Shown here one piece after another: positions 25,626-58,515 of a DNA stretch of 61,949 nucleotides. The notes beneath the pieces were generated by a model. The model saw only the letters and a list, made by a program, of their open reading frames with translations. It made no database searches and had not been told where the DNA came from. Positions within the stretch are counted from its first letter, which is position 1. The number at the start of each line of letters is the position of its first letter. The translations under genes and the position numbers were made by a program. The stretch comes from a virus, in IMG/VR virus record IMGVR_UViG_3300015245_000719, positions 1 to 61,949 of that record; one strand, written 5' to 3'.

Positions 25626-25655
25626 ATTATGCATCATTGCATAACCCACCGTAAA
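25626..25655 (-). promoter_or_regulatory. Promoter of HslV-like gene
   Basis: On the minus strand TTTACG (25650-25655) and CATAAT (25626-25631) are separated by 18 nt. The -10 box is embedded in the palindrome at 25629-25642. The ATG (25617) is 8 nt after the -10 box, so transcription should start at or within a base or two of the start codon. Confidence 0.6.
25629..25642. promoter_or_regulatory. Candidate operator, ATGCA-N4-TGCAT site 2
   Basis: ATGCA-TCAT-TGCAT is a perfect palindrome that extends outward by TT/AA to 25627-25644. It overlaps the -10 box of the HslV-like gene promoter. The same arms recur at 52480-52493 in the immunity region. Confidence 0.65.
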
Positions 25656-28391: not shown

Positions 28392-28436
28392 GTTGCTTTC
28401 TCCTGAAAAATGGTCTCGTCGTCGCTACGGCTCGGA

Positions 28437-29561: not shown

Positions 29562-29680
29562 GGGTGCGTCTCCTTGAATTTTCCAAGGTGGTCGCACTCA
29601 TGCGCTTCCGATCCTTGCTGCGTGGCGCCCTTTCGAGAGCGCCGGTTACCATTGAAGCCTACCCTAACGGGCAGAGTTCC

Positions 29681-29869: not shown

Positions 29870-29873
29870 GGCA

Positions 29874-30875: not shown

Positions 30876-30891
30876 GTGCTTGTCCTCATGG

Positions 30892-31308: not shown

Positions 31309-31309
31309 G

Positions 31310-32896: not shown

Positions 32897-32897
32897 G

Positions 32898-33620: not shown

Positions 33621-33621
33621 G

Positions 33622-33999
33622 TCACACCAGCGTCAGCGTGCCGCTCGCGATCTGGAGCGGTTGCGGATTGTCGAAACGAACCTTGAACAGAGCACCCTGC
33701 GGAACGAACGGCGTGCCGTCGCCCGTCTGTACGGACGCCTTGAAGAACCAGTTGCGCGTCGGGTTCCCGGCCTTGTCGAACAGGCCGGGGCCGATCCCCG
33801 CCGCGCCGAATTGGTCGAAGGTGGCTCCGCCGTCGCGGCTGATCCACTGCGAGAACACGAAAGTCGCGTTCGCCGGGAACGCGGAGAACGTGACCTGGAG
33901 CCCGAGCTCGCTGAAGGCGACCGGAGCCTGGCGCGCAGGGGTCTCGAAGCTCCCGACGGGGATGCTGGTCTGCGGGATCTGGAAGGAGTTGGCGGCCAT
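33622..33999 (-). CDS. Small beta-rich structural protein, unknown
   Basis: A 125-residue protein of beta character (TFVFSQWISRDGGATFDQFG, NWFFKASVQTGDGTPF). The ATG overlaps the portal stop (TAATG), so translation is coupled to the portal. It lies between the portal and fibre-like genes, so a portal-associated or head-vertex part is likely. No family is recognised. Confidence 0.62.
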   Translation of the reverse strand: MAANSFQIPQTSIPVGSFETPARQAPVAFSELGLQVTFSAFPANATFVFSQWISRDGGATFDQFGAAGIGPGLFDKAGNPTRNWFFKASVQTGDGTPFVPQGALFKVRFDNPQPLQIASGTLTLV

Positions 34000-36770: not shown

Positions 36771-36778
36771 TTCCGCTC

Positions 36779-37156
36779 CTAGTGCAGCGTGATCAGGCGC
36801 TTGCCGTGGTCAAACTCGGCTTGGAGAGGCGCGCCCAGGCGCTCGAGCTCGGCTTCGGAGGGCTCGGGGGCCATCTTCACCAGGTCCTCAAGGCACTCGA
36901 GGATCACGTCGGCGATGTTCTTGGCCGCCTGGCGCTCGTTGTGCATGCCGAAGTGGTCCGCGATGCGCGCAGACTGCGCGACAAGGAACGGGATCTCGGC
37001 GTACTTCCACGCGGCCGACAGGCAGATGACGAACGCGGACTTCGTTCCGAGGTGCTGGCGCAGCAGGCACATGGCAGGCTCGCCATTCACCCACTGGAAG
37101 GAGACGATGAAGCCCTTGAGTTGCCGCGTTTTCGCGATGAATTTGCGGCTGAGCAT
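36779..37156 (-). CDS. Unknown small protein between terL and portal
   Basis: A 125-residue mostly helical protein with a basic N-terminus (MLSRKFIAKTRQLKGF), a short hydrophobic patch (SAFVICLSAAWKYAE) and an acidic C-terminal helix (PEPSEAELERLGAPLQAEF). No domain is recognised. It lies between terminase large subunit and portal genes with no long gap, so it probably takes part in head assembly or DNA packaging. Confidence 0.68.
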   Translation of the reverse strand: MLSRKFIAKTRQLKGFIVSFQWVNGEPAMCLLRQHLGTKSAFVICLSAAWKYAEIPFLVAQSARIADHFGMHNERQAAKNIADVILECLEDLVKMAPEPSEAELERLGAPLQAEFDHGKRLITLH

Positions 37157-37187
37157 CCCCTATTGAACCTCGCGCGGCCAATGTGCC

Positions 37188-38609: not shown

Positions 38610-38610
38610 G

Positions 38611-38796
38611 TCAGTGGAGGAGCGGGTCCTCGTCGAGCTCGCCGAAGAGCGGGACCGGATCGTTTGCGTCGGTGTCGAGCCAGGAGATCACCCCGCACTC
38701 GCTCGGGTGCTGGTTGCAGCTCTTCCCGAGCTCGAGCAGGTCGCTGAAGCTGTTGCAGGTCTCCCCGCACTGGTCGCACTTGCAGGGGAATTTCAT
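38611..38796 (-). CDS. Small zinc-knuckle protein
   Basis: A 61-residue protein that begins MKFPCKCDQCGETC, with four Cys at residues 5, 7, 10 and 14, and two more in GKSCNQHPSEC. This can bind one zinc ion as a small knuckle or ribbon. The acidic C-terminus ends LFGELDEDPLLH. Its ATG overlaps the stop of the metallopeptidase gene (TGATG), and it ends 1 bp before terL. It may help DNA or protein recognition during packaging. Confidence 0.72.
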   Translation of the reverse strand: MKFPCKCDQCGETCNSFSDLLELGKSCNQHPSECGVISWLDTDANDPVPLFGELDEDPLLH

Positions 38797-39224
38797 CAGC
38801 CCTGCCCCAGGCTCAAGGCGAGCGTTGTCGGCTTGTGGAGGATCGCGTCGCGCGCGCCGCTCATGGAAATCATCTTTCCGTATAGCGGCGAGCACAGCCG
38901 CCCGGCGACGGCGTTCAGGAACCTCGCGCGGGCGTTGCGATCTATGTTCCGCCTGCAAAACGCCTGATACTCGGCGCGGTGCGCTGGAATCTCTTCGGCG
39001 AGACGGAAATTCGGGTCCGCGATGTAGCGGCGCCACCAGATAGTCGGCTCCCCGCGCTGGCGCCATCCGTGCACTTTCTCGTGAGCCATCAGGTCGAGCG
39101 AAATATCCGCGTCCTCGGGGTTGTAGATCGTGTCGTCCCAAGCGAAGATGACCGGCTGCCCGGCAACGTGGAACTCGGCGTCGATCTCCTTCCACAGTGG
39201 GGGCCTGGCGATGACGATCTTCAT
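38796..39224 (-). CDS. Zincin-type metallopeptidase
   Basis: A 142-residue protein with a HExxH motif (AHEKVHGW, residues 47-54) and a downstream Glu-rich helix (AEEIPAHRAEYQAF, residues 76-89) that can supply the third ligand. The fold would be a small zinc metalloprotease. The ORF is open to 39371, but the ATG at 39224 overlaps the upstream stop (TGATG) and fits the neighbouring coupling pattern. It lies between terS and terL, an unusual position for a protease. It may process a head protein or act on the host; no signal peptide is present. Confidence 0.75.
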   Translation of the reverse strand: MKIVIARPPLWKEIDAEFHVAGQPVIFAWDDTIYNPEDADISLDLMAHEKVHGWRQRGEPTIWWRRYIADPNFRLAEEIPAHRAEYQAFCRRNIDRNARARFLNAVAGRLCSPLYGKMISMSGARDAILHKPTTLALSLGQG

Positions 39225-39397
39225 CAGCGGTCCAGGAAGGTGATCCAATAGCCGTGGCTGAGCAGGTCGTGCCGGTTGACCTGGCCACTGTCGTTTTCGA
39301 CAAGCGCCTCGCCATTGAAAATGGCGAGGCACACTCCTTCGTAGCCCCACGAGCTCGACTGGATCTTGCACGGGCGCGGGAATGGAATGGCGTTCAT
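39224..39397 (-). CDS. Small protein of 57 residues, unknown
   Basis: A short ORF starting at ATG 39397 (MNAIPFPRPCKIQ) and ending HGYWITFLDR, with its stop overlapping the metallopeptidase ATG. It contains one Cys pair and aromatic residues but no recognisable fold. The tight coupling (TGATG) and lack of a gap support it as a real gene. The Shine-Dalgarno is weak (GACGGGG). Function unknown. Confidence 0.6.
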   Translation of the reverse strand: MNAIPFPRPCKIQSSSWGYEGVCLAIFNGEALVENDSGQVNRHDLLSHGYWITFLDR

Positions 39398-39428
39398 TCG
39401 TCGGCCCCGTCCATGCGGCGTCCGGTGT

Positions 39429-39788
39429 TCATATCAGGTAGATCGGAGCGAGGACACCGAAGCAGGTGAACGCAGCCCCGGTCCAGTCCTGCTCCGCGCC
39501 CTTGGGGTCGGGGCCTGCGTTCCAGAGGAAGTAGCCGATGAACATCGGCACCGGAAGCCAGAACCACGCGCCGTAGGCGACCATGACCGCGGCGGTGACG
39601 CCCTGGCACCCGACGGCCGCGACGTGCCCGGCAGTCTCCTTCGTGTTCGGGTCCCGGACCGGAGCCGTGTACGGCGTCTCGAGTACGGGGTGGTCCTGGA
39701 AGCCCGGATGCATCGTGTCGTTCGCCGCGCGCGCGGGCAGCACGAAGAGCAGCAGAGCTACGACGAGGCTAGTGCAAAGAGCCCTCAT
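39429..39788 (-). CDS. Membrane protein with signal-like N-terminus
   Basis: A 119-residue protein with a classical signal peptide or first TM (ALCTSLVVALLLFVLPARAA, residues 3-22) and two hydrophobic segments near residues 56-70 and 74-88. The mid part is polar. It overlaps the 3' end of terS by 20 bp. Signal-like proteins in this place could be lysis or membrane-anchored packaging helpers. No family is recognised. Confidence 0.65.
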   Translation of the reverse strand: MRALCTSLVVALLLFVLPARAANDTMHPGFQDHPVLETPYTAPVRDPNTKETAGHVAAVGCQGVTAAVMVAYGAWFWLPVPMFIGYFLWNAGPDPKGAEQDWTGAAFTCFGVLAPIYLI

Positions 39789-40389
39789 GTGTTTCTCCTT
39801 GTTGTTGTTTTTCTGCGGAGACTTTCTCGGGCAGCGCGAACACGCCGTCCGGTCCCGGGATGAGGTCGATGGACGCCCGCTCGTCGATGAGCCGCTTGAT
39901 GCGGTTGTCCAGCTCCTCGTTGGTGAGGCCCTTCAGCTCGTGCTCGATGGTGATGCGCTTCTCGTCGGTGAACATGGCGTGCCGGCGGCCCAGGAGCTCG
40001 AGGGCCTTGTTCGCGCCCTGCGCGTTGAACTCCCACTCCCCTGTCGGCATGTTCTCGACCTTACCGGTCTCGGGATTCAGGCGCCGCTCGAACACAGGCT
40101 CCTTCTGCATGCACCGCTCGACCACCTCGACCAGGCGCTCCTCGACGTACTTGGCGCTTGAGACCGCGCGCCGGGACAGCTCGGCGAGCCGCGTGTCGAT
40201 CGCCGTGGCGATCTCCGGGACGCGGAGCATGCGCGCCCCGACCGTGCTGGCGGTCTCCTCGCTCCAGGTGCCGACGCGCCGCACTGCCGCCGCGGCGTCG
40301 AGGTCAACGGTGTACTCCTCGACGAAGCGCAGCTCCTTGTCCGTGAGGACCCGCTGAAATCCGGTGGTCAGGTCGCCGGGTTTAGGCAC
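39769..40389 (-). CDS. terS: Terminase small subunit
   Basis: About 206 residues. The segment LTDKELRFVEEYTVDLDAAA followed by AVRRVGTWSEETASTVGARM has the helix-turn-helix-like pattern of terminase small subunits, which bind the packaging site. The ORF is open to 40470, but a GTG at 40389 with GGAGGGG 6 nt upstream is the likely start; the longer version would add a Phe/Gly-rich segment. The C-terminus ends in a Gln/Glu-rich tail that may contact the large subunit. It is the first gene of the late minus-strand block. Confidence 0.88.
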   Translation of the reverse strand: MPKPGDLTTGFQRVLTDKELRFVEEYTVDLDAAAAVRRVGTWSEETASTVGARMLRVPEIATAIDTRLAELSRRAVSSAKYVEERLVEVVERCMQKEPVFERRLNPETGKVENMPTGEWEFNAQGANKALELLGRRHAMFTDEKRITIEHELKGLTNEELDNRIKRLIDERASIDLIPGPDGVFALPEKVSAEKQQQGETHEGSLH

Positions 40390-40404
40390 GCGGAACCCCT
40401 CCGG

Positions 40405-40478
40405 AAAAAAGCCGCCGGAAAAAAGAGACGACCCGCCGAAAAAAAATCCCGCGTGGGACTGACACCCCATCGTGGGGT
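40405..40478. promoter_or_regulatory. A-tract cluster and hairpin upstream of terS
   Basis: Runs of 6, 6 and 8 A lie at 40405-40410, 40419-40424 and 40439-40446, separated by about 14 and 20 bp, which could bend DNA. A 6 bp hairpin (ACCCCA/TGGGGT, loop TCG) lies at 40464-40478. On the minus strand TCCC-ACGC-GGGA runs into T8 (40439-40456), which is also weakly terminator-like. Packaging-site or attenuator functions are possibilities. Confidence 0.35.
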
Positions 40479-40700
40479 ACCCGGAGAGATTTTCCCTTCA
40501 GACCCCTAGCCCCCACCCCCCACCCACCCCGCCCTCGCTCTTGACCGCGCGCGCGCTCGGGCAGTAGGAAACCTGCGAGCCGGAGCTGCGTGCGTGCCTC
40601 GGGCTGTCGAGTTGTAGATTTCGATGTCGGCATACGTTTCAACAAGTCTTTCGGCAAGGCTCTCCCGGCACCGCGCGCAAGTCGTTGACCTGCATCGCGT

Positions 40701-40726
40701 GTTGTAGAAATACACATTTCTACAAC
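40701..40726. repeat. 26 bp perfect inverted repeat
   Basis: The arms GTTGTAGAAAT and ATTTCTACAAC (11 bp each) flank a 4-base spacer ACAC. Half-sites recur at 40611-40621 (GTTGTAGATTT) and 40950-40959 (ATTTCTACAA). The latter is in the spacer of the promoter for the accessory operon. The layout suggests a dimeric regulator binding site. Confidence 0.7.
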
Positions 40727-40945
40727 TTGAGGCCGAATAGTCACTTTTGCACCACTTTGGGGCATCCAGAACACGCTAGGCGCCTCGATCCCACCTCGGT
40801 TGATACCCCGGCACGAGGCACCTATGCATAGAAGTCGCACATCCAGACGCACGCGGAGGCGAGGCAGGAGCGACCTAAAACCGTCAGTTTCATAGGCCGA
40901 GCGTGGCAGAGTTGGCAGGGTGACGCAATTTATTTCAATCCACTA

Positions 40946-40973
40946 TTGCATTTCTACAAGTCATTGGTATATC
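40946..40973 (+). promoter_or_regulatory. Promoter of the accessory operon
   Basis: TTGCAT (40946-40951) and TATATC (40968-40973) are 16 nt apart in an AT-rich patch that stands out from the GC-rich background. The half-site ATTTCTACAA at 40950-40959 overlaps the -35 end and spacer. The first gene (41020) follows with an AAGGAG Shine-Dalgarno. Confidence 0.55.
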
Positions 40974-41019
40974 ATTTTCGCATAGGCCGAGCCATCCACC
41001 ACTGCACAAGGAGACGCAC

Positions 41020-41157
41020 ATGAAAGACACGATCTGGCTGGACACGGACGGGCAAGACGAGCGTGATGATCTGCATAGCGCGCGAGGCATCATCAACGCG
41101 CTCGCCGTTAGCGTGGTCTTGTGGTTGCTGATGTACGCACTCACGGCGTTGCACTGA
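41020..41157 (+). CDS. Small single-TM protein, 45 residues
   Basis: The ATG at 41020 has AAGGAG 6 nt upstream. The product starts with a charged 22-residue segment (MKDTIWLDTDGQDERDDLH) and ends with one transmembrane helix (INALAVSVVLWLLMYALTAL). It is the first gene of the plus-strand operon. The function is unknown; a small inner-membrane protein expressed early could alter host physiology or lysis timing. Confidence 0.65.
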   Translation: MKDTIWLDTDGQDERDDLHSARGIINALAVSVVLWLLMYALTALH

Positions 41158-41166
41158 GAGCGCGCC

Positions 41167-41382
41167 ATGGCAATGCTCACACACTTGCGCGCACGTGGTT
41201 TCGATCTCTCGAAGCACGTGCCATTCACGAAACTCTACAACGTGCGCTGCTCCTCCTGCGTCGCGATGGTCATCAACAGCACCGCGACGCACGAACGCGG
41301 TTGCCCCAACGCGATGTCGGAGTGCAACGGCTGCAACGCACTCATCCCGACCAATCAACGCTACTGCGCGGAGTGCCAATGA
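41167..41382 (+). CDS. Zinc-ribbon-like protein
   Basis: A 71-residue protein with four Cys pairs: CSSC near residue 28, CPNAMSEC and CNGC in the middle, and CAEC at the C-terminus. These could build two small zinc ribbons, a pattern common to phage proteins that bind nucleic acid or RNA polymerase. The N-terminal part (LRARGFDLSKH) is basic and helical. The gene follows the 45-residue membrane gene by 9 bp. Function unknown. Confidence 0.68.
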   Translation: MAMLTHLRARGFDLSKHVPFTKLYNVRCSSCVAMVINSTATHERGCPNAMSECNGCNALIPTNQRYCAECQ

Positions 41383-46223: not shown

Positions 46224-46519
46224 GCGTCAAGCTGGAGAAGGAAATCACCCGCGAGACCAACCTTCGGTGCAAGGGCCGCAAGATCATGATGACCCTCGGA
46301 CCGAGCGCCATCACGTTCTGGCTGAAGGGCAAGCGCGAGACGTTCACCCTCACGCTGGAGGAAGCATTCACGCGCTCTACCTTCGGCATGGAGCGCGCCG
46401 TAATCGAGCAGGCGCGCGCTCCTGGCCGAGACCCGATGCTTGTGACGCCACGCGTGGAGCAGCAGGTAGACGTTGCCGCCTTGGAACAGTGCATGAAGGA
46501 CCTCAACAATGCTCGCTGA
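46220..46519 (+). CDS. Unknown 99-residue basic protein
   Basis: Starts at GTG 46220, overlapping the previous stop, with GGACAGGAGGG a little upstream. The N-terminal half is beta and basic (CKGRKIMMTLGPSAITFWLKG), and the C-terminal half is helical. It ends overlapping the wall-hydrolase start by 11 bp. Function unknown; the basic beta half could bind nucleic acid. Confidence 0.66.
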   Translation: MSVKLEKEITRETNLRCKGRKIMMTLGPSAITFWLKGKRETFTLTLEEAFTRSTFGMERAVIEQARAPGRDPMLVTPRVEQQVDVAALEQCMKDLNNAR

Positions 46520-46916
46520 GGCCGCACTGTGCATGGCGTTGAACATTTACCACGAGGCCGACCTGCTGCACGAGCCGTTTTCTGGCCGTCTCGCAATCGG
46601 TTTCGTCACGAAGAACCGCGCAGACCTGCATGGGACGACGGTCTGTTGGGAGGTCATGCGCTACAAGCAGTTCTCGTGGACGCTCGACCCGATGAACCTT
46701 CGCGCGATCCCCGGCGGGCAGGCGTGGAACGAATCCATCCAGGCCGCGGAGCTAGTGCTCTCCGGACTTCCAGACATCACCAGCGGCGCCACGCACTTCC
46801 ACGCGACCTACGTCAGCCCGGTGTGGATCAAGGGAATGCGCCGCATCGGACGATTCGGCAGTCACATTTTCTACAAGGAGAAGTCCGTCATACATGCCTT
46901 CGGGAAACTTCAATGA
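46509..46916 (+). CDS. SleB-type cell wall hydrolase
   Basis: A 135-residue protein of the Hydrolase_2/SleB family. The early Glu is in NIYHEADLL (near residue 16), with GRLAIGFVTKNRA following, and YKQFSW, SGATHFHATYVSPVW and FGSHIFYKE complete the family pattern. SleB enzymes cleave peptidoglycan glycan chains as lytic transglycosylases. No signal peptide is seen, so it would need a holin or act from the virion. Its position in the early operon, away from the lysis cassette, is unusual. Confidence 0.85.
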   Translation: MLAEAALCMALNIYHEADLLHEPFSGRLAIGFVTKNRADLHGTTVCWEVMRYKQFSWTLDPMNLRAIPGGQAWNESIQAAELVLSGLPDITSGATHFHATYVSPVWIKGMRRIGRFGSHIFYKEKSVIHAFGKLQ

Positions 46917-47482
46917 GCGAAGGCAAGGCCAGAGTGCCGACCGAGAAGGAGCGCAAGCGCCTGTTCGAGCTGGAGAGCGCGCAGCTTCGCAACACCGCGA
47001 TGCTGTACCTCAGCTACGGCTGCGGACTACGCGTGCACGAGATCGCCAAGCTGAACCTCGGGAGCGTGATCGACGAGGACGGCGACGTAATCGACTCGTT
47101 CTCCATCAACGGCAAAGGCGAGAAGGTGCGCGACGTGTACCTGAACAACAAGAAGGTGCGCGACGCGCTGGCCGAGTACGTGGCCCACCTCCGAACGAAG
47201 GGCGACGTGTACCTCGACCGCCCCCTATTCATGTCGTATCGGCGCGAGCGGATGTCTCCGAACACTTTGCAGCAGGTGTTCGCGTGGATGTACGAGCGCG
47301 CCGGACTGAAGGGATGCAAGTCGCACAGCGGACGGCGCTACTTCGCGACGAAGCTGCTGAACGAAGGCATCGACATCAGGAGCGTGCAGGCCCTAATGGG
47401 GCACGCGAACATCAACCAGACCGCCGAGTACGCCGACACCGATCCGGTGAAGCTGAAAGCGGTCGTTGCAAAGGTGATCTGA
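46913..47482 (+). CDS. Minimal tyrosine recombinase
   Basis: A 189-residue protein that is only the catalytic domain of a tyrosine recombinase. Residues R40 (CGLRVHEIAKL), H138-x-x-R141 (SHSGRRYFATKL), H164 (LMGHANI) and Y173 (TAEYADTD) fit the R-H-R-H-Y signature, with a Lys near 68-71. The N-terminal core-binding domain of typical integrases is missing. The ATG overlaps the hydrolase stop (ATGA); the long ORF upstream in this frame has no start signal and overlaps the hydrolase gene. It may be the integrase or a resolvase. No attachment site is evident nearby. Confidence 0.85.
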   Translation: MSEGKARVPTEKERKRLFELESAQLRNTAMLYLSYGCGLRVHEIAKLNLGSVIDEDGDVIDSFSINGKGEKVRDVYLNNKKVRDALAEYVAHLRTKGDVYLDRPLFMSYRRERMSPNTLQQVFAWMYERAGLKGCKSHSGRRYFATKLLNEGIDIRSVQALMGHANINQTAEYADTDPVKLKAVVAKVI

Positions 47483-50160: not shown

Positions 50161-52197
50161 CTAGACCGACTTCTTGACGAGGCGAGAAGGTGTCCTCGTG
50201 AACACCTCCTTGAGCTTGCGATCGGGCGTCCTGAACTGGCCGCGGTGCACCCTCCCCTCGTCCACGAGCCGAAGCAGCACGCGCGCTAGGGCGTCCGGCC
50301 CTAGCCCCTTGGGGAAGTCCTGCACCAACCTCATGGAGTGGAAGGCGGTGTAGTGGCCGTTGATGGCGGTGTTGACGACGATCCCGTTCTTGTCGCAGTA
50401 GTCCAGGCAGGCGATCACCTGCGCGTCCTGAGAGCTCGTCCTGATCGCGTCGGCAGCCTGCTTGCCCACGTTCTCGCGCTCACCGGCCAGGATCGGCACG
50501 CCCTCGATCCACTCTAGGGTCACGGGCGCCGCGCGCGGCCCCAGGTTCGCCTTGGCGTGATAGAGGGTCATCGTGCCCGCTTCCTCGTCTGGAATGAGCG
50601 CCAGGCGCGACCGGACGCTGTTGTGCCAGGCGGTGCTGCCCGAGTAGGCTTCCGGGTCGGCCCGGGCTCCGTTCTTCGCGCTCTCCTTGTTGATGTGCGC
50701 GAGGAGCAGCACGGCCCTCTTGGGGCGGGCGAGGCGGCTCCGCAGAGAGCGGATGAACGCCCGCACGCGCGGGCGCTTGATCTCGTCGTCGTCGAACGCG
50801 TCGGAGGCGTTGTCCACGATCACGAGGCCCCCATCGACCAGCCGTTCGACCAGCTCCGAGAGCGCGGCCATCATCGGGGTCTCGAGGTCGGCCGAGAGCA
50901 TTGCGCCGCGGCGGTCCCGGTGCAGGGCGGAATCCAGGTCAGAGGCATCCAGCACGGACAAGCGCCCCTTCAGCTCGTTCGGGTCGATGTCCAGGCTTAT
51001 GCAGATGCGAAACACCCGGTTCCTGATGATCTGCGCGCCGTCCTCGGCCGAGAAGAACAGCACCGGGGCTGCGCGGGTTTCGATCCCGAACACCGGGCGC
51101 CCGAGCGCGACGTGCACGGCGATCAGGAGCGCGATGTAGGACTTCCCTCCCCCGCCGTGCCCGGCGAGGAGCGTCACCTCGCCCTCGGGAATCCAGTCGT
51201 GCACGAGGTAGCGCTGCGGCTCCTCGCGGTCCAGAGCGTCGAGGCTCACGATGTACTGCTCCAGGCCCTCGATCTTCGGGGGCTCAAGCGGCACGGCAAC
51301 GTGATTTCGTTCTTCGTGCGTGCGCTTGACCGATGCGATAGTGGTGTTCAGCTCCGCGTCGGAGAGCGACTGCGGGTTGTTCGCGTTCCAGTCATCCAGA
51401 ATCTTCTTCGTCTCGCGGAGCGACAGCCCACGTTGAAACGCGGTTCCCGCCAGGGACGCAGCGGCGTTGTTCCGCCCGCCCACCGGCACCTGCTGGTCGA
51501 AGCGCGCTGGCTCGTGCACGCGGTCCGCGTCGAAGCCGGCGAGGTTCCCCTTCCCTACTGGCGTAGCGGCTCCGATGTTCGCGCGCCGGTAGCCCTCGAT
51601 CGCAGCGACCTGCGCGGCCTCGAGCATGGGAAGATCGGACGCAGTGACGTGGTTGATCTCGGGGTCGATCTCGTCCGTGTAGTAATTGCCCGAGCTGTGC
51701 CGCGAGCCGCCGGCGACGACGTAGCCTCCCAGGCCGCGCGTGTCGATCTTCGCGTGCGGGTCGGCGCTGTTCCGGATCTCGACGAATGGGTTGCGCCGAT
51801 AGTAGAAGTGCATGCCCTTGCCGGTCTTGACGCGCCAGGGCGTGTGCGGAAGGCTCGTGCGGCACCAGCTCACCGACTCCGCGCTGTCCGCGTCCACGAC
51901 GATCAGCTCGCCGCAGGCAAGGCCGATGTTCGCTTCGGGCCACTGCGTCCACCACGCGCGCACCATCGACTCGGTGGGCGCCTCGGTCTGGTACGGCTTC
52001 CATGCGACGCGCGGCTGCTTAGGCCATTCGGCTGTCGCCTCCGCTATGTCCCCTTCGAAACGGTCCTTGATAATCCATACAGGTGGCGCCTCGCCGTAGG
52101 CCCCGAGCGGGAAGATATGCAGTCCCTTATCCAGTAGCTCAAGGGCGCGCTCCATGAGGAGGCCCTTGTTTTGCTCTTTTGAATCAGGGGTATGCAT
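50161..52197 (-). CDS. Prim-Pol primase/RepA-like helicase
   Basis: A 678-residue fusion. Residues 15-210 form a bifunctional primase-polymerase (PF09250-like) domain, with metal-binding Asp in LIVVDADSAESV (near 100) and KTGKGMHFYYRRNP. A PriCT-like linker with AASLAGTAFQRGLSLRETKK follows. Residues 335-550 form a RecA-like helicase (RepA/AAA_25) with Walker A LLAGHGGGGKSYI (near 343-355), LFFSAEDGAQ and VIVDNASDAFDDDE. It would prime and unwind at the adjacent origin. ATG 52197 lacks a Shine-Dalgarno and is near a TAAAAT box; an internal ATG at 52155 is an alternative. Confidence 0.88.
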   Translation of the reverse strand: MHTPDSKEQNKGLLMERALELLDKGLHIFPLGAYGEAPPVWIIKDRFEGDIAEATAEWPKQPRVAWKPYQTEAPTESMVRAWWTQWPEANIGLACGELIVVDADSAESVSWCRTSLPHTPWRVKTGKGMHFYYRRNPFVEIRNSADPHAKIDTRGLGGYVVAGGSRHSSGNYYTDEIDPEINHVTASDLPMLEAAQVAAIEGYRRANIGAATPVGKGNLAGFDADRVHEPARFDQQVPVGGRNNAAASLAGTAFQRGLSLRETKKILDDWNANNPQSLSDAELNTTIASVKRTHEERNHVAVPLEPPKIEGLEQYIVSLDALDREEPQRYLVHDWIPEGEVTLLAGHGGGGKSYIALLIAVHVALGRPVFGIETRAAPVLFFSAEDGAQIIRNRVFRICISLDIDPNELKGRLSVLDASDLDSALHRDRRGAMLSADLETPMMAALSELVERLVDGGLVIVDNASDAFDDDEIKRPRVRAFIRSLRSRLARPKRAVLLLAHINKESAKNGARADPEAYSGSTAWHNSVRSRLALIPDEEAGTMTLYHAKANLGPRAAPVTLEWIEGVPILAGERENVGKQAADAIRTSSQDAQVIACLDYCDKNGIVVNTAINGHYTAFHSMRLVQDFPKGLGPDALARVLLRLVDEGRVHRGQFRTPDRKLKEVFTRTPSRLVKKSV

Positions 52198-52205
52198 GTA
52201 TGCTT
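52192..52205. promoter_or_regulatory. Candidate operator, near match at primase start
   Basis: ATGCA-TGTA-TGCTT matches ATGCA-N4-TGCAT in nine of ten arm bases. It covers the primase ATG, so binding would block transcription start or elongation at the gene. A TAAAAT -10-like box follows at 52207-52212 on the minus strand, 9 nt from the ATG, but no good -35 was seen. Confidence 0.4.
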
Positions 52206-52224
52206 GATTTTATTCCGGGAAGGT

Positions 52225-52440
52225 CTACAATCTGCGCAACGGTCGGGAGATCAGGACGCTTGGGTCAGATTTCATGACACGATCATATAGAGTGAGCAGC
52301 GTTGAGCCGACGGAGTACCGCGGCTCGCTCCCGGAGCGCATCCGACTCACCGTTGATTGGCTGCATCCGAGTGCCGCGGCTAGAGAACGTTCGGTGTACC
52401 CGCCACGCTCGAGTAAATACGGGATGATTTTTTCGAACAT
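52225..52440 (-). CDS. Cro-like HTH regulator
   Basis: A 71-residue protein with a helix-turn-helix (YTERSLAAALGCSQSTVSRM, residues 15-34). Size, orientation opposite to the repressor, and location at the head of the replication operon fit a Cro analogue. The promoter at 52452-52480 places the transcription start only a few bases before the ATG, and no Shine-Dalgarno is evident. The primase starts 27 bp downstream. Confidence 0.75.
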   Translation of the reverse strand: MFEKIIPYLLERGGYTERSLAAALGCSQSTVSRMRSGSEPRYSVGSTLLTLYDRVMKSDPSVLISRPLRRL

Positions 52441-52451
52441 GAACGTTGTCC

Positions 52452-52480
52452 AAAATACAGGAGTCCGTAGTGTTCGTCAA
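52452..52480 (-). promoter_or_regulatory. PR-like promoter of cro-primase operon
   Basis: On the minus strand TTGACG (52475-52480) and TATTTT (52452-52457) are exactly 17 nt apart. The palindrome ATGCA-N4-TGCAT (52480-52493) abuts the -35 box, sharing one base. The ATG (52440) is 11 nt past the -10 box. The block ATGCAA-N4-GCATTGACG is repeated at the other early promoter (53305-53323). Confidence 0.75.
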
Positions 52481-52493
52481 TGCACAGTTGCAT
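52480..52493. promoter_or_regulatory. Candidate operator, ATGCA-N4-TGCAT site 3
   Basis: ATGCA-CAGT-TGCAT, a perfect palindrome in the 71 bp gap between cro-like and repressor genes. It overlaps the -35 end of the PR-like promoter and lies just before the repressor Shine-Dalgarno, so it could serve both directions. Confidence 0.75.
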
Positions 52494-52511
52494 AACGGGA
52501 GAGCAAACCAA

Positions 52512-52928
52512 ATGGCTAAAGCCACGCAAGAGCCGGAGCTTGGCCCGCTCGCGAGAAGCCTCGCTCGCTTGATGGCCAGTCATCTGGTGAAGGGAAAGCC
52601 GATTTCTGCGAATGAGCTGTCGAAGCGGAGCAAGGTTCCGCAATCGACGATCACCAGGATGCTCTCGGGGTATGTGACAGATCCCCGCGCGAGCTCGCTG
52701 GAGCGGATCGCTGCTTACTTCAACGTCACGCTCGCCGCGTTGCGCGGTGAGGATGTAGTGCCGGTTGTCGCCGGTCAGCAGCTACTTCACCGGCTCTCGC
52801 CGGACGAGCTCGAGCTGCTGATGATCTACCGTTCCGCGAACCCCACGGGGCAGGTCGCCATCGCCGGCGCTGCCTCGGGGATCGCAAGCGGCGTAAAAGC
52901 CGCGGAGGTAGTTAAGAAGATACGCTAG
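52512..52928 (+). CDS. Phage repressor, HTH type without S24 peptidase
   Basis: A 138-residue protein. The HTH lies at residues 33-52 (ANELSKRSKVPQSTITRML), followed by helices to about residue 80 (LERIAAYFNVTLAALRGEDV) as in XRE-type CI proteins. The C-terminal 45 residues (from L95) are helical with no Ser/Lys peptidase dyad, so RecA-dependent autocleavage is not expected. The ATG at 52512 has GGGAGAG upstream; a TTG at 52446 would extend the ORF through the operator and is not believed. It likely represses the early promoters through the ATGCA palindromes. Confidence 0.82.
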   Translation: MAKATQEPELGPLARSLARLMASHLVKGKPISANELSKRSKVPQSTITRMLSGYVTDPRASSLERIAAYFNVTLAALRGEDVVPVVAGQQLLHRLSPDELELLMIYRSANPTGQVAIAGAASGIASGVKAAEVVKKIR

Positions 52929-52931
52929 TAG

Positions 52932-53219
52932 TTAGGCAACCTTCGGAACGAGTCGAAGCACAAAGCCGCCTACCAGGGCGGCTTTTTGTTGCGGGTACTT
53001 CACCGCGATGCACTGCGCCGTTGCGATGATCGACTCTTGTACGTGCGGTAGCGCACCGCGGTAGGTCTGAATCAGCTCCGCTTCCTGCGGAGTCAGTAAT
53101 CTCATTTCTGCCAAGATTTTTCTTACGCCCACGACCGCCTCCCGTGTTGAAGGTGAACCAGCAAACTCCGTAGTTATTGTGGTTGCTGTGGTGTCGCTAG
53201 ATTGCGACACTCTCGTCAT
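52932..53219 (-). CDS. Repressor C-terminal-like protein, possible antirepressor
   Basis: A 95-residue protein. Residues 42-61 share L-[ST]-P-x-E-x-E-L-x3-Y-R-x-A-x-P-x2-Q with the repressor C-terminus (residues 95-114) at identical spacing, so it resembles the repressor oligomerisation part without an HTH. It converges with the repressor gene and could form mixed oligomers that inactivate it. The ATG at 53219 lies 4 nt after TAGATT of a consensus promoter and lacks a Shine-Dalgarno. The 53252 TTG start would lie inside the -35 box and is rejected. Confidence 0.7.
   Translation of the reverse strand: MTRVSQSSDTTATTITTEFAGSPSTREAVVGVRKILAEMRLLTPQEAELIQTYRGALPHVQESIIATAQCIAVKYPQQKAALVGGFVLRLVPKVA
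52962..52987 (+). terminator. Rho-independent terminator of repressor gene
   Basis: A 9 bp stem AAAGCCGCC / GGCGGCTTT (52962-52970 with 52977-52985) and a TTTTT run, 34 bp downstream of the repressor stop. The hairpin lies inside the coding sequence of the convergent 95-residue gene. Confidence 0.88.
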
Positions 53220-53223
53220 TGGG

Positions 53224-53252
53224 AATCTACGCCCAAGGTATGCCAGTGTCAA
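53224..53252 (-). promoter_or_regulatory. Promoter of the repressor-C-terminal-like gene
   Basis: On the minus strand a perfect TTGACA (53247-53252) and TAGATT (53224-53229) are separated by 17 nt. The ATG (53219) follows after four bases (CCCA), so the mRNA should be leaderless. No ATGCA palindrome overlaps it. Confidence 0.75.
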
Positions 53253-53304
53253 CAGTCCGCTCGGCGATTACCTTACAGAAAGGTTTCATTTGTTTCATGC
53301 GCTA

Positions 53305-53318
53305 ATGCAAATACGCAT
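53305..53318. promoter_or_regulatory. Candidate operator at recombination-operon promoter
   Basis: ATGCA-AATA-CGCAT matches the operator consensus at nine of ten arm bases and abuts TTGACG exactly as the site at 52480 does. The composite ATGCAA-N4-GCATTGACG is shared with the PR-like promoter (16 of 19 bases identical). Confidence 0.65.
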
Positions 53319-53346
53319 TGACGGTGACCACGTCCTATGCGAACAT
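53318..53346 (+). promoter_or_regulatory. PL-like promoter of recombination operon
   Basis: TTGACG (53318-53323) and GAACAT (53341-53346) are 17 nt apart, and TG one base before the -10 box makes it an extended -10 promoter (TGC-GAACAT). ATG 53354 lies 7 nt after the -10 box. A second, overlapping ATGCA/TGCAT pair (53345-53355) covers the expected transcription start. Confidence 0.55.
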
Positions 53347-53353
53347 GCATTGC

Positions 53354-53929
53354 ATGAGAGGGACACTCGCGAAGCGCATCAGGATGATGTGCAAAGAGAT
53401 CGGACCAACGATCTCGAAGAAAGCAGCTAAGAAGCTCTGGCGCTCAATCGTTCGCGGAAATAGTGCCAGCGAACCGAAGTCTCTCCCTACGAGGGGTGTA
53501 AGGAAAACACTACACGCCTTTCTCGGTTTCCGCGGCTTCCCGGATCACAACGATCCCTCGTGCACCTTCGAGGAGCGTCGCCAGTGGGAGCCAGGCCCCG
53601 TCATCACCGTCCGATCCATCTACGGCGGGATGGTTCCCGCGGGCCGCAGACTACCTCCAAAGCCTGACGAAACGTCAGAGAAGAAACGTGACGGATTCAC
53701 GGACGCCAGCACCCGCAAGGGTCTCCTGGAGCGTCTGGACGACCGCCAGAAGCAGCTCAGTTCCTTCTTCGAGCGGTTCGTAGCCGTATTCGCAGCAAAG
53801 GCGAGCACACCCGGGAAAGCGCACGTCAAGAAGGCGCCACGAGTGTACCCGCATTCATCCACGCGGCAGCACACGCGCCTCGCGCGTCGCATCGCCCGCG
53901 CCTACCCCGAGCACTTCACCGTCCACTGA
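53354..53929 (+). CDS. Basic protein of unknown function, first in recombination operon
   Basis: About 191 basic residues with an N-terminal RGTLAKRIRMMCKE, a central Phe/Asp region (FRGFPDHNDPSCTF) and a helical C-terminal part (RLDDRQKQLSSFFERFVAVF) ending in an Arg-rich tail. The start is uncertain: ATG 53354 fits the likely transcription start, and ATG 53345 is 9 bp upstream. No Shine-Dalgarno precedes either. It is the first gene of the rightward early operon, a place often used for host-takeover or antitermination proteins, but no motif supports either. Confidence 0.6.
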   Translation: MRGTLAKRIRMMCKEIGPTISKKAAKKLWRSIVRGNSASEPKSLPTRGVRKTLHAFLGFRGFPDHNDPSCTFEERRQWEPGPVITVRSIYGGMVPAGRRLPPKPDETSEKKRDGFTDASTRKGLLERLDDRQKQLSSFFERFVAVFAAKASTPGKAHVKKAPRVYPHSSTRQHTRLARRIARAYPEHFTVH

Positions 53930-54468: not shown

Positions 54469-55224
54469 ATGGCAGTCAGTCTCGCAAGTCTGAAGAGGGG
54501 TCGCAACGTCCGGCCGCCCCGCATCGTCATCTACGGACCGCACGGCCTGGGCAAGTCATCGTTCGGCGCGAGCGCGCCGGCCCCGGTGTTCATCCAGACC
54601 GAGGACGGCCTGGGCACGCTGGACGTGACGTCATTCCCGCTCGCGCAGACCTTCGCCGACGTGAACGGCGCGCTGTCCACGCTCTACACCGACGACCACG
54701 AGTTCAGCACCGTGGTCATCGACTCCGCCGATTGGCTCGAACCGCTCATCTGGAAAGAGACCTGCGCGCTTCACGGCAAGGCCGACATCGAGGAGTTCGG
54801 CTACGGCAAGGGCTACGGATTCGCGCTCGACCAGTGGCGCAGCGTGCTCAGCGGTCTCAACGCTCTGCGCGACACGAAGAACATGGCCTCCATCGTCACC
54901 GCGCACTGCCAGATCAAGCGCTTCGACTCACCCGAGGTCGAGCCCTACGACCGCTACACGCCGAAGCTGCATAACTCGGCCTCCGCGCTGTTGCAGGAGT
55001 GGGCCGACGCGGTGTTCTTCACCAACTGGAAAACCGTCATCCAGAAGGAGGACGTCGGCTTCAACAAGAAGGTGGCGCGCGGCGTCACCACCGGGCAACG
55101 GATGATGTACACGACCGAGAAGCCCGCGTACCTCGCCAAGAACCGATACAGCCTCCCCGAGGAAATGGATCTCTCGTGGCAGGCATTCGCCGACGCGCTC
55201 ACCGCCTCGGCCGCGCAAACGTAA
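54469..55224 (+). CDS. Sak4-like RecA-fold ATPase
   Basis: A 251-residue protein with Walker A YGPHGLGKSS (residues 22-31), TEDGLGTLDV after it, and a Walker B-like strand TVVIDSADWLEPL. The family (phage nucleotide-binding AAA_24, Sak4) anneals or pairs single-stranded DNA with an SSB partner. The next gene encodes a DUF669-like protein, the usual Sak4 companion. It is therefore likely a phage recombinase. Confidence 0.85.
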   Translation: MAVSLASLKRGRNVRPPRIVIYGPHGLGKSSFGASAPAPVFIQTEDGLGTLDVTSFPLAQTFADVNGALSTLYTDDHEFSTVVIDSADWLEPLIWKETCALHGKADIEEFGYGKGYGFALDQWRSVLSGLNALRDTKNMASIVTAHCQIKRFDSPEVEPYDRYTPKLHNSASALLQEWADAVFFTNWKTVIQKEDVGFNKKVARGVTTGQRMMYTTEKPAYLAKNRYSLPEEMDLSWQAFADALTASAAQT

Positions 55225-55256
55225 CCCTTTCACCACAACAGGAGCTCAGCACAGCA

Positions 55257-55775
55257 ATGGCAAATCTCACAGGTTTCGATGCAAGCACCAAGGGCGACAT
55301 GCTCGACTTCGACGCTTTCCCCGAGTGCAAGGCGCTCGGGATGATGGTCGCGTCGCAGATGAAGCCCACGAAGGACGGCACGGGCCAGTACCTCGAGTGC
55401 GAATTCTCGGTGCTCGACGGCCCGCACAAAGGTCGGCGCCTGTGGACGCGCCTCAACCTCGTCAACAAGAACAAGCAGGCCGTGGACATCGCCGAGCGCG
55501 AGCTGGCCGCGATCTGCAAGGCCGTCGGCAAGCCGCGACCGAGCGATTCGAACGAGCTGCACAGCATCCCCCTGCTGCTCGACATCGGCTACGAGCCCGC
55601 CAAGGCCGCCGACCCGGTGAAGAACAAGCCGGCGCGCAAGGCGGAGAACTACTTCAAGGGCTACCACCCCGCCTCCGCCGCGGCGCAGGTGAGCGCCGCC
55701 GCCACCACGGCTCCGGTCCCGCAGGCTCCGGCGGCTCCGGCCCCGCGTCCCTCGACTCCGCCCTGGGCGAAGTAA
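55257..55775 (+). CDS. DUF669-like ssDNA-binding protein
   Basis: A 172-residue protein. MKPTKDGTGQYLECEFSVL and GPHKGRRLWTRLNLVNKNKQ-like strands fit the DUF669 OB-like core, with AERELAAICKAVGK following. The C-terminal 45 residues are Ala/Pro-rich and end in PPWAK, comparable to the flexible tail of SSB, though not acidic. The ATG at 55257 has AGGAG upstream (ACAGGAGCTCAGCACAGCA). It probably coats ssDNA for the Sak4-like ATPase. Confidence 0.82.
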   Translation: MANLTGFDASTKGDMLDFDAFPECKALGMMVASQMKPTKDGTGQYLECEFSVLDGPHKGRRLWTRLNLVNKNKQAVDIAERELAAICKAVGKPRPSDSNELHSIPLLLDIGYEPAKAADPVKNKPARKAENYFKGYHPASAAAQVSAAATTAPVPQAPAAPAPRPSTPPWAK

Positions 55776-55782
55776 AGGTCAC

Positions 55783-55850
55783 GCCCCGCGCCTGCCGCAC
55801 ACCGTAACGCCGGTTTCCTTCCTTTCCCGGCGGTGCGCAGGTCGCGGGGC
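55783..55850 (+). other. Long imperfect stem-loop between operon segments
   Basis: GCCCCGCG (55783-55790) pairs with CGCGGGGC (55843-55850), CTGC with GCAG, and GCAC with GTGC inside it, giving a stem of about 16 bp with small mismatches and a loop rich in T and C. No T-run follows, so it does not look like a standard terminator. It separates DNA-metabolism genes from the secreted/membrane genes. Confidence 0.55.
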
Positions 55851-55874
55851 TCCCACTAAAGCCAGGAGGCTTAC

Positions 55875-56243
55875 GTGAGAAACATGATTCTGTATCTGCT
55901 CTACACCATGGCGGTGTGGCTAGGCGTGGTGGCGCTCATCTTGATATGCGCGCAGGCCGCCAAGGCGGACACGATGTTCGTCAAGAACGGCGGCGGCGGA
56001 TGGATGGTGCTGTTCGAGCACAAGTGCACCATCAAGGAGTTGGACGCCGAGGGCCGGAAGGAAGTGTACTCGTTCACCCGCGACGAGGAATTCTTCGGCT
56101 GTTGGGCTCTGGTGGACGGGCTGGTCACCGTCTACTGGATGGACGGCGACACCACTGTCGCGCCGTTCTCGCAGTTCAGGACGCTCCAGCCGTGGATGAT
56201 TCCCTATCAAGAGTACCTGGAAGTCCATGCGCCGGCTCGCTGA
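55875..56243 (+). CDS. Exported or membrane protein, unknown
   Basis: A 122-residue protein starting at GTG 55875 with GCCAGGAGGC upstream. A signal peptide or TM spans residues 5-28 (ILYLLYTMAVWLGVVALILI), followed by AQAAKADT as a possible cleavage site. The mature part is soluble (GGWMVLFEHKC and FFGCWALVDG with two Cys). Periplasmic location is inferred. It may be a moron that modifies the host envelope. Confidence 0.66.
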   Translation: MRNMILYLLYTMAVWLGVVALILICAQAAKADTMFVKNGGGGWMVLFEHKCTIKELDAEGRKEVYSFTRDEEFFGCWALVDGLVTVYWMDGDTTVAPFSQFRTLQPWMIPYQEYLEVHAPAR

Positions 56244-56334
56244 CATCGCCGCCGCTATTTTCTGCGCGCCGAGCCGCGTGCTCGACTCGTTCTTCGGTCT
56301 GATCGAAACCTACAAACGCATGAGGGGGTTCTGA
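56227..56334 (+). CDS. Tiny protein, 35 residues
   Basis: ATG 56227, overlapping the previous gene by 17 bp. Sequence MRRLADIAAAIFCAPSRVLD then FFGLIETYKRMRGF, an amphipathic helix pattern. It is part of a run of coupled small genes. Weakly supported. Confidence 0.4.
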   Translation: MRRLADIAAAIFCAPSRVLDSFFGLIETYKRMRGF

Positions 56335-56335
56335 A

Positions 56336-56470
56336 ATGCCACCGCTTTTTCTTCGCTACGTCTGGTACATCCCGTTCCTCTCCGCCGTGTGGCTAACCAA
56401 GCGTGACACACAGGAGATCTACACGCGGGGGTTCTACATCTTCGGCGTCCGGGTGGGCGTGTGGTCGTGA
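56336..56470 (+). CDS. Small hydrophobic protein, 44 residues
   Basis: ATG 56336 follows one base after the previous stop. Hydrophobic residues 4-20 (LFLRYVWYIPFLSAVWL) may insert in the membrane. The stop overlaps the start of the outer-membrane-like protein gene (GTGA). Possible membrane helper. Confidence 0.5.
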   Translation: MPPLFLRYVWYIPFLSAVWLTKRDTQEIYTRGFYIFGVRVGVWS

Positions 56471-57003
56471 GGGTCATCTACGCCATCCTCGTCTACGTCG
56501 CCGTCATCGTGGCGATAGTGTTCGGCGCTTCGAGCGTCGCGCACGCCGACACCTGGGTATCGCTCGGAGGCGTCTCGCATCACTTCGAGCGCTCCACGCC
56601 GCACAACGAGGAGAACTACGGCATCGGCCTCGAGCAGGACACCAGCGTTGCGCACCTGCGGCTGATCGTCGGCGAGTACAAGAATTCCTTCTGGCGGGAG
56701 TCGTTCTACGCCGGCTTCTCCTACACGCCGCTGTCGTTGGGGCCTGTGCGCTTCGGCCTCATGGGAGCAGCCCTAACAGGCTACGGGAACATGACCTGCG
56801 AGACGCACCAGTCTGGACCAACCGCCACCGCGAGCCCAATGACCACCACCACCACGAGCTGTGCCTACCACGAGCGCGTGCGCGCCTACGGCGTCCCGTT
56901 CGCGCAGATCGAGGGCGAGCGCTTCGGGGTCAACATGCTCGCCGCTCCGCCCATCGCAGGCAAGGGCGGCGTCGTGGCCGTCCAGTTCAAGGTGAAGTTC
57001 TGA
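56467..57003 (+). CDS. Secreted beta-barrel-like protein
   Basis: About 178 residues. A signal peptide is visible (YAILVYVAVIVAIVFGASSV, cleavage near AHADT). The mature part has beta strands ending in aromatic residues: EENYGIGLEQD, NSFWRESFYAGFSY, GPVRFGLMGAALTGYG and a C-terminal strand VVAVQFKVKF. This pattern fits a small outer-membrane barrel and partly resembles PagP-like lipid A acyltransferases, but the catalytic His/Asp/Ser set is not clear. As an early secreted protein it could alter the host surface. Start at GTG 56467 (GTGA overlap). Confidence 0.65.
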   Translation: MRVIYAILVYVAVIVAIVFGASSVAHADTWVSLGGVSHHFERSTPHNEENYGIGLEQDTSVAHLRLIVGEYKNSFWRESFYAGFSYTPLSLGPVRFGLMGAALTGYGNMTCETHQSGPTATASPMTTTTTSCAYHERVRAYGVPFAQIEGERFGVNMLAAPPIAGKGGVVAVQFKVKF

Positions 57004-57254
57004 TGAAAGCGACAGTCGTGAACCTGGACGATACCCCGGTCGAGATCATCGCCGAGAGCATCAAGACCGTCGCGGATGGTGTCCGCAAGCTGCGCGCAGG
57101 GCCGCTCAGCGACCGCGCTCTGCTCCTGCTGATCCAGCACGCCGCGCCGCGCGATCGCCGCGGGCAGACCGTCTCTCTCGGAGAGATCAAGCGCGTGTTC
57201 GACGGGATAGACTCGCTCGAGCACGAGTACCTGAAGAAGAAGCCTAAGTCATGA
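57003..57254 (+). CDS. Unknown 83-residue protein
   Basis: Starts at ATG 57003 (TGATG overlap). An alpha-helical protein with a PVEIIAESIKTVADGVRKLR segment and RALLLLIQHAAPRDRRGQTV in the middle. Its C-terminus is basic (YLKKKPKS). No family recognised. Confidence 0.66.
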   Translation: MKATVVNLDDTPVEIIAESIKTVADGVRKLRAGPLSDRALLLLIQHAAPRDRRGQTVSLGEIKRVFDGIDSLEHEYLKKKPKS

Positions 57255-57373
57255 GCGCGAAGCAGACCTACGACAAGAAGGACCCGCGCTTCCCGTGGAC
57301 CGCGCGTCAGCGCCGGCGCCTGACTGGCTCGCGCAAACAGCGCAAGGTCACGCGCCACGATAAGAAGCGCTGA
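57251..57373 (+). CDS. Highly basic small protein, 40 residues
   Basis: Starts ATG 57251 (ATGA overlap). About 45 percent of residues are Lys or Arg (ARQRRRLTGSRKQRKVTRHD). It probably binds nucleic acid. It ends at the ATG of the nuclease gene (TGATG), so it is coupled with it and may be a nuclease cofactor. Confidence 0.55.
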   Translation: MSAKQTYDKKDPRFPWTARQRRRLTGSRKQRKVTRHDKKR

Positions 57374-58515
57374 TGGCCGCGCTACCCGAGAAGCAGTTCA
57401 CCACCGTTGTCAAGATCTACGAGCACTGGTCCAAGGCGACGAACCAGGACCCGAGGCCGCACCTGGGCGCGTCCATCATCGGCAAGGAATGCCGGCGCGC
57501 CCTTTGGTACGACTTCCGGTGGGCGACGCGGCGCGTGTTCGAGGGCCGCATGCTGCGCCTGTTCGACACGGGGCAGCGCGAAGAGGGGCGACTCGTCGCC
57601 GACCTGCGCAACGCTGGCGTGACGGTGTACGACCGCGATCCGGAGACCGGCAAGCAGTTCCGGTTCCTGGACCACGGAGGCCACTTCTCCGGCTCAATGG
57701 ACGCCTCGCTCAAGGGACTCGTCGAGGCGCCCTCCACCTGGCACGTAGGCGAGTTCAAGACCCACAACACCAAGTCGTTCGACGCGTTCAAGAAGAACGG
57801 GGTGAAGGCGTCAAAGCCGGTGCACTGGCACCAGATGAACACCTACATGGGCTGGTCCGGCATGAAGCGCGCCGCCTACTTCCCGGTATGCAAGGACAAC
57901 GACGAGATCGACCTCGAGCGCGTCGAGTTCGACAAGGACGCCTTCGAGCTGGACCGGGCCAAGGCCAAGACCATCATCGAGGCGCCGGAACCGCTCTCCA
58001 AGATCTCGGAGGACCCGTCCTTCTACGAGTGCAACCTCTGCGACCACAGGGGCACATGCCACGGCGGTCGTGCCCCGGCCATGAGCTGCCGCACCTGCGC
58101 GCACTCCACGCCGATCACCGACCAGCCTGCGCGCGAGGAAGCGCCCTGGGGCTGCGCTCGGTACGGGTGCTCCCTCAGCTACGCGGAACAGCTCAAGGGC
58201 TGCGTGACGCACGTGTTCATCCCCGCGCTGCTGCCCTGGGCCGAGCCGCTTGTGGCCGGCGACGATTGGGTGATCTACCGGAACAAGCTGAACGGCCGCA
58301 ACTTCTGCAACCACAGGCGCGTCGCTGACGAGCCCTTCCCTGATGGATTGGAAGGGGCGCTCGTCGAGCACGGCGTCATCTGCATGTACTCGAGCGCCGA
58401 GCTGAACGGCTGCCCGCCAAGGCTCGTCGGCGACCCGGGCGTGGACGCGCTCAAGGTCGAGGCTGACGCCACCGTCAAACCGCAACCACAGGAGATCGCA
58501 CGTGAACCCGCATGA
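57373..58515 (+). CDS. Cas4/RecB-like PD-(D/E)XK nuclease
   Basis: A 380-residue protein. The nuclease core has D110 (GSMDASL) and E127-x-K129 (WHVGEFKTHN). An early Cys in GKECRRALWYD (C40) and three later Cys in YECNLCDHRGTC have the one-plus-three spacing of the iron-sulphur cluster in Cas4/AddB-like nucleases. A C-terminal extension has more Cys (CRTCAHS, GCARYGCS). It could be a DNA exonuclease for recombination with the Sak4-like ATPase. No Cas genes are present. Confidence 0.84.
   Translation: MAALPEKQFTTVVKIYEHWSKATNQDPRPHLGASIIGKECRRALWYDFRWATRRVFEGRMLRLFDTGQREEGRLVADLRNAGVTVYDRDPETGKQFRFLDHGGHFSGSMDASLKGLVEAPSTWHVGEFKTHNTKSFDAFKKNGVKASKPVHWHQMNTYMGWSGMKRAAYFPVCKDNDEIDLERVEFDKDAFELDRAKAKTIIEAPEPLSKISEDPSFYECNLCDHRGTCHGGRAPAMSCRTCAHSTPITDQPAREEAPWGCARYGCSLSYAEQLKGCVTHVFIPALLPWAEPLVAGDDWVIYRNKLNGRNFCNHRRVADEPFPDGLEGALVEHGVICMYSSAELNGCPPRLVGDPGVDALKVEADATVKPQPQEIAREPA

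Follow-up and report, generated by a model that had tools for sequence, protein, structure and literature searches.

One palindrome at both early promoters of a predicted phage immunity switch resembling that of lambda in mirror image

The closest described counterparts of the locus reported here are the immunity regions of lambda and 434. In lambda, the repressor gene lies between two outward early promoters that have one operator sequence in common, cro is the first gene of the replication operon, the recombination genes belong to the other operon and the promoter PRE is antisense to cro; each side carries three operators, with about 2.3 kb between the two sets, and the repressor has an S24 autocleavage domain. 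Phage 434 uses a 14-bp operator, ACAA-N6-TTGT, bound by a repressor of the XRE/HTH_3 fold with Gln first in its recognition helix. More than two repressor sites across a genome, some of them at promoters, are found with the P1 c1 operators and the L5-type stoperators of mycobacteriophages, the latter being asymmetric, numbering in the tens and lying within genes (PMC9283540, PMC6550527). In the CI-Mor systems of TP901-1 and phi13, Mor binds the N-terminal domain of CI (PMC11149083). The virus studied here is predicted to have a lambda-like on/off switch in which a single repressor could shut two outward early promoters by means of one palindrome.

The DNA analysed, referred to as the window, is a stretch of 61,949 bp from an uncultivated virus of bacteria (IMG/VR record IMGVR_UViG_3300015245_000719, positions 1 to 61,949). 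As in lambda, its switch has a repressor gene between two outward early promoters with a common operator sequence, a divergent Cro-like gene whose product has a related recognition helix, replication and recombination genes divided between the cro side and the opposite side, respectively, and a PRE-like candidate promoter antisense to cro. Unlike lambda, it has one operator on the left and two plus a half-site on the right, rather than three on each side; the operators are about 0.83 kb apart; a convergent extra gene is present rather than rexAB; the repressor, of 138 aa, has no S24/LexA-type domain; and the first right-hand gene gave no match to an N homolog in family scans. The orientation is also mirrored, with cro and replication leftward and recombination rightward, so that PR has its counterpart on the cro/primase side and PL on the recombination side. 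Since the operator triplets and the S24 repressor are absent, we do not file the locus as a lambdoid immunity region, but the view that it would work like the lambda switch in mirror image is well supported as a mechanism. The original prediction of a PL/PR pair stands as far as a repressor-controlled pair of early promoters flanking the repressor gene is concerned, which is well supported, whereas the mirrored order, the operators beyond the pair and the missing lambdoid hallmarks depart from it. With 434 the locus shares 4-bp arms, N6 spacing, the XRE/HTH_3 fold and the leading Gln of the recognition helix; it differs in having ATGC arms, in lacking the C-terminal protease domain and in showing no close sequence relation. 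Compared with the L5-type stoperators, its sites are few, symmetric and located at promoters.

The starting point was a 19-bp block, ATGCAA-N4-GCATTGACG, said to occur leftward at 52475-52493 (-) and rightward at 53305-53323 (+) with 16 of 19 bases identical, its palindrome ending in a -35 box that is followed by a 17-nt spacer. The coordinates and the identity proved exact, and the two blocks were the sole exact matches in the 61,949 bp searched; the promoter register also held at both, the -35 box being TTGACG in each case. We found that the core common to the blocks is a 434-type dyad, ATGC-N6-GCAT, whose last T is in both copies the first T of the TTGACG box, with 17 nt then leading to the -10. 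Four exact copies of this dyad were present in the window, against 0.72 expected, a number reached in none of 200 simulations, and three of them fell within the 1.4-kb switch, where 0.03 were expected; one is at the left promoter, two are at the right promoter and one is in a promoter at 25.6 kb. A site weight matrix was built from these four sites, so that the ranking of sites is descriptive, while the dyad count and the permutation tests are independent of it. Promoters were ranked with a sigma-70 weight matrix over the whole window, and a separate consensus scan was also run. In a genome of 64% G+C, AT-rich dyad repeats near promoters are partly expected, a point addressed by the permutation and spacer controls given below.

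The left early promoter (TTGACG-N17-TATTTT, 52452..52480, -; -10 TATTTT at 52457-52452), predicted to drive the cro/primase operon, ranked second in the window and was also listed by the consensus scan. Its -35 shares one base with the left operator O1 (CAATGCACAGTTGCATAA, 52478..52495), an exact dyad with its core at 52480-52493, the right-hand half of which, TTGCATAA, is the half-site of the repressor family. The leftward operon encodes a 71-aa Cro-like HTH protein (52225..52440, -; HTH_3 3e-5, phrog_6831 2.7e-11) with the helix QSTVSRMRSG, followed by a Prim-Pol/AAA primase-helicase (50161..52197, -; Prim-Pol 2.1e-24, AAA_25 5.3e-31). The PRE-like candidate (TTGATT-N16-TACAAT, 52204..52231, +), located beyond cro and pointing at the repressor gene, ranked third in the window and also appeared in the consensus scan; a one-mismatch dyad at 52192-52205 overlaps its -35. 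No CII gene was identified to accompany this strong-looking promoter.

On the right, the operator O2 (TAATGCAAATACGCATTG, 53303..53320; exact dyad, core 53305-53318), with an additional ATGC half-site beside it at 53297-53300, stands to the right early promoter (TTGACG-N17-GAACAT, 53318..53346, +) in the register seen at the left. This promoter ranked twelfth in the window and was absent from the consensus scan that lists the left one; its -10, GAACAT (53341-53346), matches the consensus at 3 of 6 positions and is preceded by a TG-N extension, which may rescue it in part. In a further exact dyad, O3 (CTATGCGAACATGCATTG, 53335..53352; dyad 53337-53350), which lies 32 bp from O2 centre to centre, the N6 is the -10 hexamer itself. 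O3, the remote operator O4 described below and the one-mismatch copies all come in addition to the two blocks originally predicted. The first gene of the rightward operon (53354..53929, +) has its ATG at the predicted transcription start and no ribosome site; searches of Pfam, NCBIfam and phage homologs gave none, and a weak match to phrog_34614 was seen. The recombination genes of this operon (54469..58515, +) encode a Sak4-like annealase (phrog_124, 1.1e-44), an SSB-like protein (phrog_6015, 2.6e-32) and a Cas4-domain exonuclease (phrog_1990, 2e-95). No ribosome site precedes the genes beginning at 25617, 53354 and 52440, which lie behind operator-bearing promoters, and their first codons coincide with the predicted transcription start or are only a few bases away from it; the early mRNAs from these promoters may accordingly be leaderless.

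A repressor had been predicted between the twin promoters, and an XRE gene is indeed located there (52512..52928, +; HTH_3 1.1e-7), with a GGGAGAG ribosome site at its start and divergent from the Cro-like gene. Its product carries an N-terminal HTH whose recognition helix, QSTITRMLSG, is nearly the same as that of the Cro-like protein, and the two proteins scored 32.1 and 24.4 bits, respectively, with HTH_3, both above the curated cut-off of 23; family scans of the 138 aa matched HTH models only. A candidate weak promoter for the repressor (TTGTCC-N16-TAGTGT, 52446..52473, +; a low-scoring match of 4.4 bits) has its predicted start at the edge of O1, and autoregulation of the repressor is therefore possible. 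Downstream, a G+C-rich hairpin followed by TTTTTG (52954..52993, +; an inverted repeat with a fold z of -2.5) is likely to be the repressor terminator, although it was missed by a simple terminator scan; it falls within the 3' end of the convergent open reading frame (ORF) discussed below. An Rfam search of the region gave no match.

Single-sequence searches with the repressor, the convergent ORF, the Cro-like protein and the first right-hand gene, covering viral contigs, GTDB contigs, phage records and the PDB, gave no relatives or HTH-domain matches only. A whole-genome search in a proteobacterial class yielded a single homolog whose alignment spans most of the repressor (locus L111); it too has a divergent Cro-like gene, and the DNA separating the two genes was found to hold TAATGCATGAACGCATTA, which contains the dyad (chance 0.014 in 180 bp). 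The dyad hypothesis was fixed at this point, and an alignment of the two proteins was then used to find further relatives. Among the five new loci, four had an exact dyad between the repressor and Cro-like genes (TTATGCGTTTTTGCATAA in three and TTATGCACTACCGCATAA in one), whereas none of the 23 permuted letter orders of the arms gave an exact match in the five; in each of the four, the full TTATGC-N6-GCATAA occurred once in the 15-20 kb fetched, at the switch. The fifth, L139 (genome G337), is the closest relative by E-value and has no dyad upstream; there, however, the gene for the homolog is embedded in a CRISPR array and lacks a Cro-like partner. Within positions 1-1700 of L139, this gene (738-1163) lies between CRISPR repeats, and a fragment resembling the C-terminal region of another repressor precedes the array. 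Overall, the dyad, mostly as TTATGC-N6-GCATAA, is present at five of the six loci in bacterial genomes that encode full-length relatives of the repressor. The six full-length proteobacterial homologs (L129/L135 and L130-L134) are about 130-140 aa long, with a helix of the type QxTIxRI and a divergent Cro-like partner, and have the dyad between the two genes in 5/6; their neighbour genes differ from those of the window, and neither the twin arrangement nor remote sites nor the second ORF were found at these loci. The dyad was missing from sixteen repressor loci that are more distant, almost all of them of S24-type length. Because the dyad is conserved beside homologous repressor/Cro-like pairs, the assignment of TTATGC-N6-GCATAA as the operator is well supported, and it is these palindromes beside the genes of related repressors that make the operator readable from sequence alone.

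Several other comparisons were set aside. A dyad in genome G007 was within coding-like A+T-rich sequence. Loci with related Sak4, primase, RusA or terminase genes had unrelated switches and were rejected as switch relatives; the order primase(-)/switch/Sak4(+) was common among them, being kept in ten IMG/VR contigs (L034-L058) despite unrelated switch genes, and we read this boundary as a module junction at which immunity cassettes may be exchanged. The contig IMGVR_UViG_3300012944_000048 (L087) is 100% identical to positions 27191-41291 of the window and, judged from this identity, belongs to the same phage population; its fetched part covers 27-41 kb only and offered no divergence for comparison.

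The predicted operator set extends past the two early promoters. The remote operator O4 (TTATGCATCATTGCATAA, 25627..25644), a TTATGC-N6-GCATAA perfect to the family consensus, is the best site and the most symmetric copy in the window and sits in a 48-bp gap between genes of the structural region; it is overlapped by a sigma-70-like promoter of rank 8 (TTTACG-N18-CATAAT, 25626..25655, -), with the next ATG (25617) 8 nt past the -10. The fifth best site is a one-mismatch operator (CAATCCACTATTGCATTT, 40936..40953) between divergent promoters at 40927-40956 (-) and 40946-40975 (+), which ranked fourth and fifth. A dyad with at most one mismatch overlaps five of the ten best sigma-70-like promoters in the window (the left early promoter, the rightward one at 52204, the divergent pair at 40.93-40.98 kb and the one at 25.6 kb) and six of the top 15. 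In the arm control, by comparison, the best of 23 other letter orders overlapped one of the top ten promoters, and in the spacer control the best other length overlapped two of the top 20, against six for N6. The site at 25.6 kb and the weaker ones at 40.94 kb and 52.2 kb suggest that the same repressor may shut other promoters. A second repeat family was also noticed near the divergent pair, comprising a perfect inverted repeat, GTTGTAGAAAT/ATTTCTACAAC, at 40701-40726 and an extra exact ATTTCTACAA at 40950-40959, within the spacer of the + promoter at 40946; with six copies of at most one mismatch against 0.45 expected, it is possibly the site of another regulator of the 40.9 kb divergent promoters.

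That the blocks are similar by coincidence, as chance words in AT-rich promoter DNA of a G+C-rich genome, is hardly credible. In Markov simulations of two 140-bp flanks that preserved dinucleotide content, the 16/19 identity was reached in 2 of 3000 runs, which taken alone is about 1 in 1500, and the 9-bp exact word common to both blocks, reached in 7%, is unremarkable alone; but the dyad counts and the permutation and spacer controls speak against chance, which the footprint in independent loci had already disfavoured. It is more conceivable, if still improbable, that the early promoter and operator function at the left block alone, while the right one has no promoter and acts as a decoy or in looping. 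The weak right -10 and its omission from the consensus scan would fit, whereas the identity of operator, -35 and spacer register with those at the left, the TG extension, the centring of a second dyad exactly on that -10 and the start of the recombination operon with an ATG at the predicted start all argue for a promoter. The dyads might also be real operators that serve mainly the Cro-like protein or some other phage regulator, with the 138-aa protein having a different site or role. The Cro-like helix nearly equals that of the repressor and the Cro-like gene adjoins the site in all footprinted loci, as such a reading would have it, but we consider it unlikely: the dyad tracks the repressor/Cro-like pair as a unit, both helices match and the switch yielded no third HTH gene. 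In lambda and 434, repressor and Cro both bind the same sites.

The original prediction had also placed a second regulator between the promoters, and here it was overconfident, this being the least certain part of the lambda-like reading. An ORF is present, convergent to the repressor gene (52932..53132, -; 66 aa from a GTG at 53132 with a GGGAGG site, or 95 aa if from the ATG at 53219), but a regulatory role for it is weakly supported; family scans gave neither an HTH, or any other recognisable DNA-binding domain, nor a family match. Three weak genome matches to it were located in unrelated genes and were rejected, and AlphaFold models, made from single sequences, were of low confidence and were kept out of fold searches. 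Its promoter (TTGACA-N17-TAGATT, 53224..53252, -) is the best sigma-70-like site in the whole window, also listed by the consensus scan, and has no operator dyad on it, so that the ORF could be expressed in the lysogen. Just downstream of this promoter lies a distinct perfect dyad, GTGTCGC-N6-GCGACAC (53191..53210), possibly the site of another regulator. One tentative interpretation, which we regard as possible but doubtful, is that the product of the ORF duplicates the C-terminal region of the repressor without its HTH and serves as an antirepressor or co-repressor; it would be made in the lysogen from the operator-free promoter and pair with the repressor. It is favoured by that promoter, by an ungapped alignment over 31 aa to repressor residues 95-125 (42%, score 57, shuffle P 2e-4), by a smaller match to the L139 relative (P 0.005) and by a helical model, of low confidence, with helices at matching places. 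However, one unrelated Arg-rich reading frame scored 58 in the same alignment test, the repressor family profile scored the ORF at about the 1% level of shuffles, the coding score was borderline, homologs were found in no collection searched and the 3' end of the ORF contains the likely repressor terminator. The proposal resembles CI-Mor in that a small second protein would act on the repressor; here, though, the ORF resembles the repressor C-terminus and lies convergent, and the interaction is putative. Still more speculative, and in our opinion improbable, is a combined scheme in which the 434-type operators run by the repressor form a small genome-wide set, at the two early promoters, at the structural-region promoter and, at 40.9 kb, at the divergent late/accessory pair, while the HTH-less C-terminal copy expressed in the lysogen tunes the repressor by mixed pairing.

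Taken as a whole, the locus very probably serves a temperate podovirus-like phage as its immunity switch, with repressor dimers on the dyads silencing both early promoters. The sequences themselves show the dyads, their register to promoter-like sequences, the gene order and the conservation of the dyad by homologous repressor/Cro-like pairs; binding, repression, Cro competition and a temperate life style are inferred. The XRE repressor would bind (TT)ATGC-N6-GCAT(AA) as a dimer, covering the -35 of the leftward promoter from 52480-52493 and both the -35 and the -10 of the rightward promoter from 53305-53318 and 53337-53350, so that both early operons would be silent in the lysogen. The Cro-like protein, because its recognition helix is almost identical, would be expected to compete for the same sites and take them after induction. 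A temperate life style is suggested by the tyrosine integrase gene (46913-47482; PF00589, 1.5e-27), immediately upstream of which is a gene for a cell wall hydrolase (46509-46916; PF07486, 2.5e-14). About a fifth of the window is occupied by a single reading frame of 4,540 codons (210-13832, -), presumably a giant virion-type protein as in some podoviruses.

These results give a concrete operator code, TTATGC-N6-GCATAA, supported across independent loci, for short phage-type repressors of a non-S24 family with no match in the solved-structure set. They also predict a multi-promoter regulon in an uncultivated phage, and the convergent HTH-less ORF is a specific candidate for what inactivates repressors that are so short and have no autocleavage domain.
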